A DNA stretch of 64,000 nucleotides, from assembly GCF_003173595.1 (NCBI RefSeq), contig NZ_QGNZ01000001.1, forward strand, positions 372,001 to 436,000. Direction: 5' to 3'. The notes below the pieces were generated by a model that was given only the letters and a program-made list of their open reading frames with translations, ran no database searches and was not told where the DNA came from. Each line of letters opens with the position of its first letter. The first letter of the stretch is position 1. The stretch comes from Pedobacter yonginensis (GTDB lineage: Bacteria > Bacteroidota > Bacteroidia > Sphingobacteriales > Sphingobacteriaceae). The position numbers were made by a program, and so were the translations under genes. Below are positions 45,525 to 64,000 of the stretch, piece after piece.

Positions 45525-45609
45525 TACTCAGAGCGGGAATCGAACCCGCACGCCTGTTAAGGGCACAGGATTTTAAGTCCTGCGTGTCTACCAGTTCCAC
45601 CATCTGAGC
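45525..45609 (-). tRNA. tRNA-Leu (anticodon TAA), copy 1
   Basis: This 85-base tRNA has a long variable arm as expected for Leu. Acceptor stem GCTCAGA/TCTGAGT, discriminator A at 45525, D-arm GTGGAACTGGTAGACAC, anticodon stem CAGGA/TCCTG around the TAA anticodon, and T-arm GGTTCGATTCC. The CCA end is not encoded. Confidence 0.96.
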
Positions 45610-45663
45610 ATCGAGCAATAAGGCTCTTAAAATAAATGCCTCCTGGTAGGAAGGCATTTATGG

Positions 45664-45736
<73 letters not shown>

Positions 45737-49423: not shown

Positions 49424-49508
49424 TACTCAGAGCGGGAATCGAACCCGCACGCCTGTTAAGGGCACAGGATTTTAAGTCCTGCGTGTCTACCAGTTCCACC
49501 ATCTGAGC
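49424..49508 (-). tRNA. tRNA-Leu (anticodon TAA), copy 2
   Basis: Identical in sequence to the copy at 45525-45609, including the discriminator A and the lack of an encoded CCA. Confidence 0.96.
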
Positions 49509-49561
49509 ATCGAGCAATAAGGTCTTAAAATAAATGCCTCCTGGTAGGAAGGCATTTATGG

Positions 49562-49634
<73 letters not shown>

Positions 49635-61806: not shown

Positions 61807-62778
61807 CTAAGAAACTGAATTTGGGTTTTTAGCGTTTTCTAGGGTGCTTATGGTATGGTTTAATTTGCTGTAATCCAAAACAGTTTTGCCATCTTCGTTG
61901 TGGTGATGCATAATTTCAAATTTTGCGTTCATCTCAATATCTTCATCTTGATAGCTTGTTCTGGTGTGGATGGTTTCGGCGAAAGTATCATCAAAAGCCT
62001 TTAAAATGACGAAGATTTCAACCTCCGCAACCTTTAACTCCGCTAAAGTTTTTTCAAACAGCGGGCTATCTTCTGTAATGGGATGAACTACGGTCCAGTT
62101 TAATGAAAGCACGCTAATTTTATTGCGTTCTAAATCGAGAGGATAGAAACTTCTTTTCAACTGCCCGTCAATGGTTTCATTAAAAGTCATAAACATTTGC
62201 ACTTCAACATCAATCAAAGAGTTACGGCGAAGATTCACCAACCTAAACATTAAACCCGTTCTGTTTTGATAGGGGGCAATTACCATCTTCTTACTGAAAG
62301 TGACTTTAGAGGTTGGCCTACTAAAGCGACCATAGAGTAAACCAGTGGCCAACGCAAAAGCCAGTAACCCAAGCATACTTTCAAAGGCGGCCAAAATACT
62401 GGTGATGAAACCTTGAGGGGAGATGTGTCCGTAGCCCACTGTAGAAATGGTTTGGGCAGAAAAGAAAAAAGCATCGAAAAACTGGTCTCTTAATGTTAAT
62501 CCTTTAGCACCATCTAAATTTTCTATTCCAACAATGTTGTATGCAATTGCGAAGAGCGTGTTTACAATGAGGTAAACCGTTAAAATTACCACGAAGAAAC
62601 GTGGCCAGCTCATGGTAACCAATCGGGTGTAGGTATCGTCAAACTTAAACCAAGGTAAGCCTGTTCTTTCTATATTTGGAGTACCATCGGTATTCAATAC
62701 CCGTTGATTTTTGATTACTGGGGCAGAGCCGAAACCCAGATCATCATTAAATTGTACTTTTCTTTTAAAGAAAGCCAT
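61807..62778 (-). CDS. Inward-rectifier potassium channel (KirBac-like)
   Basis: The protein has 323 residues. Two membrane helices (about 55-80 and 125-150) flank the pore loop with the potassium selectivity filter TVGYG (ISTVGYGHISP). The long C-terminal cytoplasmic immunoglobulin-like domain (VTFSKKMVIAPYQNRTGLMFRLVN, NLRRNSLIDVEVQMFM) is characteristic of Kir channels. The gene is divergent from trpD; the promoters must share the 62779-62836 region. Confidence 0.92.
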   Translation of the reverse strand: MAFFKRKVQFNDDLGFGSAPVIKNQRVLNTDGTPNIERTGLPWFKFDDTYTRLVTMSWPRFFVVILTVYLIVNTLFAIAYNIVGIENLDGAKGLTLRDQFFDAFFFSAQTISTVGYGHISPQGFITSILAAFESMLGLLAFALATGLLYGRFSRPTSKVTFSKKMVIAPYQNRTGLMFRLVNLRRNSLIDVEVQMFMTFNETIDGQLKRSFYPLDLERNKISVLSLNWTVVHPITEDSPLFEKTLAELKVAEVEIFVILKAFDDTFAETIHTRTSYQDEDIEMNAKFEIMHHHNEDGKTVLDYSKLNHTISTLENAKNPNSVS

Positions 62779-62793
62779 ATATTTTAGAAAGAT

Positions 62794-62824
62794 TTTGGAA
62801 TATTAAAAATAATGTCAATATTTG
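62794..62824 (+). promoter_or_regulatory. Promoter of the trp leader
   Basis: TTTG ending at 62797 is followed after exactly 19 bases by AATATTTG (62817-62824), matching TTG-N19-TAnnTTTG with one mismatch in the -7 box. The start point would fall around 62830, only a few bases before the leader ATG at 62837. Confidence 0.65.
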
Positions 62825-62836
62825 TTCAATACAAAC

Positions 62837-62890
62837 ATGATAATTAAAAACTTAAATAACAATTGGTGGTGGCATAACGAAATTCGTTAG
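62837..62890 (+). CDS. trpL: trp operon leader peptide with three consecutive Trp codons
   Basis: The 17-residue frame reads MIIKNLNNNWWWHNEIR and ends with TAG at 62888-62890. Three TGG codons in a row (62864-62872) just upstream of a terminator and 170 bases upstream of trpD are the signature of ribosome-mediated attenuation: a ribosome that stalls for lack of charged tRNA-Trp leaves the following RNA free to form the antiterminator. The peptide itself is probably discarded. Confidence 0.88.
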   Translation: MIIKNLNNNWWWHNEIR

Positions 62891-62966
62891 GCAAATTTTA
62901 TTGTTATATATTTTAAAATATTTAAACACAATTAAAAGGATTGCCCAAAAAGCAATCCTTTTTTTA
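62890..62966 (+). promoter_or_regulatory. trp attenuator: antiterminator and intrinsic terminator
   Basis: Terminator: AAAGGATTGC (62935-62944) pairs perfectly with GCAATCCTTT (62952-62961) and is followed by a T run. Antiterminator: GGCAAATTTTATTGT (62890-62904), starting inside the leader stop codon, pairs with ACAATTAAAAGGATTGCC (62928-62945) in three blocks of 5, 4 and 5 bp. It encloses the self-complementary ATATTTTAAAATAT (62908-62921) and sequesters the 5' arm of the terminator. A ribosome at the leader stop codon would cover 62890-62904 and allow termination; a ribosome stalled on the Trp codons would not. Confidence 0.85.
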
Positions 62967-62980
62967 TTAAAAATCGCTTC

Positions 62981-63042
62981 GGTTCGTATCCTCACGAAAC
63001 GAATTGGATTAAAATTATTATTGGTTCGTGGGCACACGAAAC
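62981..63042 (+). promoter_or_regulatory. Two GGTTCGT-N6-ACGAAAC palindromes upstream of trpD
   Basis: The first lies at 62981-63000 and the second at 63023-63042. They have the same arms and different centres, 42 bases apart (about four helical turns). They lie in the leader between the attenuator and the trpD start. They could be protein-binding sites on the DNA or tandem hairpins in the RNA. Confidence 0.5.
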
Positions 63043-63063
63043 AAAGATTGAGCGCATACAAAC

Positions 63064-64000
63064 ATGAAAAAGATATTAAACCATTTATTTGAGAATAAGA
63101 GCTTTAGCAGAGAAGAGGCCAAGAATATCCTAATTTCCATCACACAGGGCGAATTTAACGCATCGCAAATTGCAGCCTTTATTACCGCCTATGCCATGCG
63201 TAATATAACGGTTGATGAATTGCAGGGTTTTCGTGATGCCATGCTCGATTTGGCTTTAAAAACAGATTTCTCCAATTACGAACTTATCGATCTTTGTGGT
63301 ACAGGTGGAGATGGAAAAGACACCTTCAACATTTCTACACTATCCTCTTTTGTAGTGGCAGGAGCAGGCTATCAAGTGGCAAAACATGGTAATTATGGCG
63401 TTTCTTCAGGATGTGGTTCATCCAATGTAATGGAATATTTGGGCTACAATTTTACCAACGATCAGGATGTGCTGAAAAGGAATTTAGATACCGCCGGAAT
63501 ATGCTTTTTACACGCGCCATTGTTTAACCCCGCAATGAAAATTGTAGCGCCAATTCGTAAAGATTTGGGCATTAAAACATTCTTTAACATGCTGGGCCCG
63601 ATGGTTAATCCATCTCAGCCTAAATATCAAATGGTGGGTGTTTTTAGTTTAGAATTGGCTAGGCTTTACAATTACCTATACCAAGATACCACCAAAAGCT
63701 ACACCATTGTGCATGCGCTAGAAGGTTACGACGAGATTTCATTAACATGCGATGTGAAGACCTTTAACAATAAAGGCGAAAGCATTTTAACTTTAAGCGA
63801 TATGGGCTTTGAAAAGGTTTCTACCACAGATATTAAAGGCGGTGATACGGTAGAATCTTCTGCCAAAATATTTATGGATGTTTTGAATGGTGAAGCCACA
63901 GATGTTCAAACCAATGTGGTGCTTTGTAATTCTGCCCTAGCCATAAAAACCATAAAACCGACAGCAACCTTCGCCGATTGCTTCTATGAAGCAGAAGAAT
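63064..64000 (+). CDS. trpD: Anthranilate phosphoribosyltransferase, 5' part (cut by window end)
   Basis: An ATG at 63064 opens a frame that stays open to the end of the window, giving 312 of the usual 330 or so codons. It transfers phosphoribose from PRPP to anthranilate in tryptophan synthesis. Family motifs: LCGTGGDGKDTFNIST (PRPP and anthranilate site), KHGNYGVSSGCGSSN, HAPLFNPAMK, and RKDLGIKTFFNMLGPMVNPS. It is the first structural gene after the trp leader and attenuator, so trpE and trpG must lie elsewhere or further downstream. Confidence 0.96.
   Translation, partial: MKKILNHLFENKSFSREEAKNILISITQGEFNASQIAAFITAYAMRNITVDELQGFRDAMLDLALKTDFSNYELIDLCGTGGDGKDTFNISTLSSFVVAGAGYQVAKHGNYGVSSGCGSSNVMEYLGYNFTNDQDVLKRNLDTAGICFLHAPLFNPAMKIVAPIRKDLGIKTFFNMLGPMVNPSQPKYQMVGVFSLELARLYNYLYQDTTKSYTIVHALEGYDEISLTCDVKTFNNKGESILTLSDMGFEKVSTTDIKGGDTVESSAKIFMDVLNGEATDVQTNVVLCNSALAIKTIKPTATFADCFYEAEE

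Follow-up and report, generated by a model that had tools for sequence, protein, structure and literature searches.

The analysed window, a stretch of 64,000 nucleotides from Pedobacter yonginensis, ends inside trpD (start at 63064), which is followed by trpF, trpB and trpA (L002). Upstream of trpD, the sequence holds a leader peptide, a terminator and an alternative pairing, all within positions 62837-62967 (Table 1). A sequence-only reading of this DNA had described a complete attenuator here, and every part of it was recovered in place; as it had stated, the terminator and the antiterminator share an arm, since UUGCC (62941-62945) lies in both. The outer 1:2 stem and the inner hairpin are elements that this reading had missed. 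The inner hairpin follows the Trp codons, precedes the antiterminator arm and is a probable pause hairpin. The terminator stem-loop occupies 62934-62962 and is followed by T residues up to 62965; two terminator-like sites, one per strand, were found in the stretch examined against 0.1 expected in shuffles. When the window was taken alone, the antiterminator duplex had an ordinary energy (-7.2 kcal/mol, equalled by 34 of 200 shuffles), so that the support for this pairing comes from relatives. The Bacteroidetes promoter consensus is TAnnTTTG. The AATATTTG block upstream of the leader is one base away from it, and an (A)ATATTTG block is retained among Pedobacter relatives, from which we infer a candidate promoter.

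Table 1. Features of the trpD leader region in window coordinates.
Feature	Position	Strand	Evidence
Promoter-like site: TTG (62795-62797), N19, AATATTTG (62817-62824)	62795..62824	+	sequence
Leader peptide ORF MIIKNLNNNWWWHNEIR*, 17 codons + TAG; ATG 62837-62839, stop 62888-62890	62837..62890	+	sequence
Segment 1 (AUAACAAU), partner 62900-62907, outer 1:2 stem	62856..62863	+	folding, mismatched-partner test, two-sided changes
Three tandem Trp codons, UGG UGG UGG, sensor	62864..62872	+	sequence, family conservation
Inner hairpin UAACGA AAU UCGUUA, perfect, within the 1:2 structure	62875..62889	+	folding, covariation
Antiterminator 5' arm GGCAA, segment 2, complementary to UUGCC 62941-62945	62890..62894	+	sequence, folding, family pairing
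Segment 2, 3' side (AUUGUUAU), partner segment 1	62900..62907	+	folding, mismatched-partner test, two-sided changes
Segment 3: 62934-62944 as terminator 5' arm, 62941-62945 as antiterminator 3' arm	62934..62945	+	folding
Segment 4: terminator 3' arm (62952-62962), into T tract to 62965	62952..62965	+	terminator search, 3:4 covariation
trpD, first gene of trpD-F-B-A, running past the window end (L002)	63064..64000	+	gene order

Several further features of the window were recorded. The surroundings of the leader peptide start (62829-62843) and the trpD start (63056-63070) are identical in 14 of 15 bases (ATACAAACATGAtAA and ATACAAACATGAaAA), possibly reflecting a common translation start context. 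An imperfect palindrome, TTCGT-N5-CACGAAAC, is present in two copies between the attenuator and trpD (62983-63000 and 63025-63042); the genome contains 37 copies, which are often clustered at regular intervals, compared to one for the reversed control pattern. Three Flavo-1 RNAs (RF01705; 53566-53635, 53878-53946 and 54183-54252, plus strand) follow one another at intervals of approximately 300 nt; the scores of the first and third are identical. A pair of tRNA genes occurs twice on the minus strand (45525-45736 and 49424-49634), approximately 3.9 kb apart; the scores of the two copies are identical, which suggests that this stretch was duplicated.

The conservation of the arrangement was evaluated with a fixed rule, demanding near-tandem Trp codons in a leader of 7-40 codons, and a terminator no more than 150 nt away. 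Such a leader with its terminator preceded trpD at 45 of 50 sampled Sphingobacteriaceae loci and trpE at 40 of 50, compared to 2 of 2000 dinucleotide shuffles and none of 100 reverse complements. Tandem or near-tandem Trp codons were present in 46 of the 50 trpD leaders. Among 80 named close trpD loci, all Pedobacter except two records, 79 carried a WWW leader, the remaining one having only 204 nt of upstream sequence, and the peptide MIIKNLNNNWWWHNEIR was identical in 36. The conserved leader that the sequence-only reading had proposed to look for in related Sphingobacteriaceae is therefore present at most loci of the family sample. In one record titled Flavobacteriaceae bacterium PS02338 (L260, JASCOD010000004.1), trpD resembles that of Pedobacter and is preceded by a WWW leader; the title of this record may be wrong. 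In 41 of 45 trpD leaders, the antiterminator arm began 13-18 nt after the last Trp codon, and relative to the leader end its start ranged from 24 nt upstream to 6 nt downstream in Sphingobacteriaceae trpD leaders. Because the spacing from the Trp codons is constant while the leader end moves over 30 nt, the start of the arm within the leader stop codon, correctly noted earlier for the window, is incidental.

The individual helices were analysed on an alignment of 35 trpD leaders (A1), which includes the window's own sequence. In the 1:2 stem, 8 of 11 pairs showed changes on both sides, the terminator was 92% paired (e.g., GC 22, CG 11 and AU 2 for column 123-143), and the inner hairpin contained 34 two-sided cells, compared to 20 in shuffles. 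Per-sequence shuffles of the 1:2 stem reached the 0.05 level at only 9 of 45 trpD loci, the test being weak in A+T-rich sequences, and were thus replaced by a mismatched-partner permutation, in which each arm was matched to the partner arm from a different genome (5000 permutations). The true partners were clearly favoured for the 1:2 stem (z = -7.6, 0/5000), the 3:4 stem (z = -11.8, 0/5000) and the inner hairpin (z = -10.9, 0/5000), and the non-partner controls showed no effect (1:3, z = -1.0; 1:4, z = +1.4). Covarying stems, also predicted earlier, were thus identified for three helices. The antiterminator of the trpD leaders gave z = -1.2 in the same test; it was paired in 88.6% of cells across the 35 family sequences, mostly invariant and with few two-sided changes, so its support is conserved complementarity rather than covariation. 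The antiterminator of the trpE leaders does covary (81.5% paired; CG 9, UA 9 and AU 2 for column 71-161).

These data also bear on the idea that the leader and terminator mainly yield a short stable RNA or peptide acting in trans, with cis-attenuation of trpD being secondary. Tryptophan plenty would indeed give a terminated RNA of approximately 130 nt, the peptide is well conserved inside Pedobacter, and there is a precedent in the trans role of the trp leader peptide peTrpL of Sinorhizobium meliloti, as described in PMC7298713. Outside Pedobacter, however, divergence of the peptide spares only the Trp run, whereas the stems covary and the Trp-to-antiterminator spacing is kept. This is the signature of a cis switch, and we consider a mainly trans-acting leader very improbable.

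The predicted switch was then examined in nascent RNA, with the window transcript cut off just past segment 3 and the ribosome simulated by masking. The antiterminator formed with a probability of 0.999 when the ribosome was stalled at the first, second or third Trp codon, 0.017 without a ribosome and 0.00 with the ribosome on the stop codon, in line with the switching logic given in the earlier reading. Its further claim, that the logic follows from the base pairs alone, did not hold: in the full-length RNA at equilibrium, the terminator won in every state (P34 = 1.0). Equilibrium folding of the full leader was consequently dropped as evidence of a switch, which must be set during transcription. 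In this reading, the antiterminator would have to form before the 3' arm of the terminator is transcribed, which depends on the order of folding and on polymerase pausing. The antiterminator was favoured by the stalled over the stop state in 44 of 45 trpD leaders and 43 of 43 trpE leaders, a contrast partly built into the masking, for which reason the control with a shuffled segment 2 matters. In the stalled state, this shuffling reduced antiterminator formation from 0.79 to 0.48 (trpD) and from 0.75 to 0.40 (trpE).

Taken as a whole, the trpD leader is predicted, with high confidence, to be a classical ribosome-mediated transcription attenuator that makes expression of trpD-F-B-A dependent on how much charged tRNA-Trp is available. 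This is a strong prediction, for which the anatomy, conservation, covariation, folding logic and gene arrangement were demonstrated computationally. The locus combines a short tandem-Trp leader ORF before a trp gene, an intrinsic terminator between this leader and trpD, a protector 1:2 pairing for the state in which the ribosome is absent and, as computed, an antiterminator that takes the 5' arm of the terminator and is free with the ribosome at the Trp codons and covered with the ribosome at the stop codon. When tryptophan is scarce, the leading ribosome would stall on the UGG codons and cover segment 1 together with the 5' arm of the inner hairpin. Segment 2 would then be free to pair with segment 3 as the latter leaves the polymerase, and the resulting antiterminator would block the terminator, allowing transcription of trpD. 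With ample tryptophan, the ribosome would reach the stop codon and cover segment 2, segments 3 and 4 would make the terminator, and transcription would stop near 62965. Without translation, segment 1 would pair with segment 2 and the terminator would form again. Both actual termination and the response to tryptophan are predicted here from the computed features.

The element resembles Bacteroid-trp RNA (Rfam RF01692), described by Weinberg et al. 2010 (PMC2864571), which has already been interpreted as a Trp attenuator in a paper on Flavobacterium psychrophilum (PMC6414381). Both are Trp-rich leaders ahead of trp genes in Bacteroidota, and the Trp-codon leader and 1:2 structure of Bacteroid-trp were found here. 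RF01692 aligned end to end with 62817-62945, including the 1:2 structure and with a few non-standard pairs marked, at 39.3 bits. This is below the gathering score of 49, so standard annotation misses the trpD leader, which by Rfam's own criterion is not a member of Bacteroid-trp. The cut-off was reached in none of 101 Pedobacter genomes, 65 of which had a weaker match. Where RF01692 matched, Sphingobacteriaceae trpD leaders scored 31-48 bits and trpE leaders at most 32. In contrast to the Pedobacter element, the Rfam-positive loci of other families are located before trpE. A model built on trpD leaders (R1) recovered above-cut-off Bacteroid-trp loci, e.g., L136 (RF01692, 88.5 bits; R1, 63.5 bits, E = 7e-12); the 93-bit R1 score of the window is not independent evidence, as its sequence is a row of A1. 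The trpD leader is thus very probably a divergent homologue of Bacteroid-trp. The remaining R1 matches in the genome (up to 37 bits, E ~1e-3; five of L277-L283 inspected) were ordinary terminators with no Trp leader before a biosynthetic gene and were attributed to chance, as was an RF01692 match of 24.3 bits at G000:C10:478270. Matches to L10_leader, STnc370, rli52 and similar Rfam families were below their cut-offs, fell on generic terminator hairpins and were rejected.

The enterobacterial trp attenuator (trpL; Rfam Trp_leader, RF00513) has the same working, with tandem Trp codons, 1:2, 2:3 and 3:4 pairings and an intrinsic terminator. No sequence match to RF00513 was found in the window, and the Pedobacter element differs in standing before trpD instead of trpE and in the covarying inner hairpin that separates its Trp codons from the antiterminator arm. 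Separate trp operons with a predicted Trp attenuator on each have been reported for Corynebacterium diphtheriae (trpB1EDGC and trpB2A; PMC1262725). That case concerns another phylum and another cut, with trpB duplicated, whereas the Pedobacter trpEGC/trpDFBA split is conserved in the family. Trp attenuation in Pedobacter was the subject of no paper in the literature searched.

In the genome studied, trpE-G-C is located on a separate contig (L003) from trpD-F-B-A, and a Trp leader of its own adjoins trpE upstream (MISNIHTWLWQSNSKTDCAGCV*; ORF L003:5354-5422, element L003:5354-5492). This ORF is followed by GCCCTGCG...CGCAGGGC TTTTT, with the terminator GCCCUGCG, and CGCAGG inside the leader is complementary to the 5' arm of its terminator. 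The two leaders of this genome share the layout of a Trp-rich leader, an antiterminator and a terminator. They differ in terminator class, AACCCGACG-like for trpE and AAGGGTTGCC-like for trpD across the family, and RF01692 finds no match to the trpE leader in this genome. Among 61 sampled Sphingobacteriaceae genomes, trpE and trpD were apart in every genome with both genes, either on different contigs or more than 1 Mb apart on one contig (e.g., G113, G125, G135, G145 and G157), and both halves of the pathway carry Trp leaders in this family. In contrast, 23 genomes outside the family in the class-wide sample had trpE and trpD on one contig within approximately 4 kb, in one operon (G361 and G355 were left unjudged because of contig ends); the order in other Bacteroidia with both genes is trpE-G-D. 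The split is thus specific to Sphingobacteriaceae within the sample. The attenuator stands before trpD because the pathway is divided into the distant loci trpEGC and trpDFBA, so the trpD-first position, rightly observed but considered unusual in the earlier reading, is no oddity.

In other families, such a leader preceded trpE at 20 of 23 loci, nearly always with a terminator, while none of 17 trpD-upstream stretches had a Trp leader with a terminator (14 of these trpD genes were verified inside an operon with trpE). R1 found nothing at E <= 1 before trpD of other families and nearly all of their trpE leaders. These comparisons speak against the view that the Trp codons are incidental and that the hairpin at 62934-62962 separates trpD from the divergent gene at 61807-62778, as a terminator or insulator that acts constitutively and possibly in both directions. 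It is true that the hairpin resembles a terminator on either strand and that the neighbouring gene is divergent, but the gene upstream of trpD varies among relatives, and tandem Trp codons recur before trpD and trpE in most genomes of the family and before trpE in other families, which makes a constitutive element highly unlikely.

In genus g3 of Sphingobacteriaceae (G102, G123 and G139), the tandem-Trp leader is missing from both operons. The trpE leaders of this genus (L065, L125 and L127) have single, separated Trp codons and a terminator, e.g., MMNQNHNNNWQSLPKRKAGWCF, and its trpD upstream regions (L079, L084 and L094) lack a Trp leader and have a terminator at most; judging from these sequences, both switches seem to have decayed together. 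Such degenerate leaders could suggest that another tryptophan sensor (T-box, TRAP-like protein or TrpR repressor) controls trpD and that the leader is a relic, which is scarcely credible for this Pedobacter, as the leader in the window is intact and conserved, no T-box or other Rfam regulator reached threshold in the window, and a search of the genome for TrpR/trpR gave no match.

For the attenuator reading, the origin of the second leader is a matter of inference. Models R1 and R2 were compared on other families as a guide to which Sphingobacteriaceae leader is orthologous to the ancestral one: most trpE leaders there score higher with R1 and several with R2, and the two models differ in pair number. 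We tentatively suggest, as a combined scenario that is possible but rather doubtful, that the leader was copied when the operon of an ancestral Sphingobacteriaceae broke up, that the trpD copy stayed nearer to a Bacteroid-trp-like ancestor while the one before trpE diverged towards a new class of terminator, and that the two switches may have different tryptophan thresholds. If this were true, the halves of one pathway would not be induced together.

What is new here is a family-wide relative of Bacteroid-trp below the Rfam threshold, together with a switch of its own on both halves of a split trp pathway; the kind of regulation was already known. The results fill a gap in annotation: nearly all sampled trp-bearing Bacteroidia have trp attenuation, which the Rfam cut-off misses throughout Pedobacter. 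The two-attenuator arrangement spans most trp-bearing genera of Sphingobacteriaceae and would provide a natural case of regulation surviving an operon split, in which one ancestral attenuator in front of trpE would have given rise to two, one for each half.
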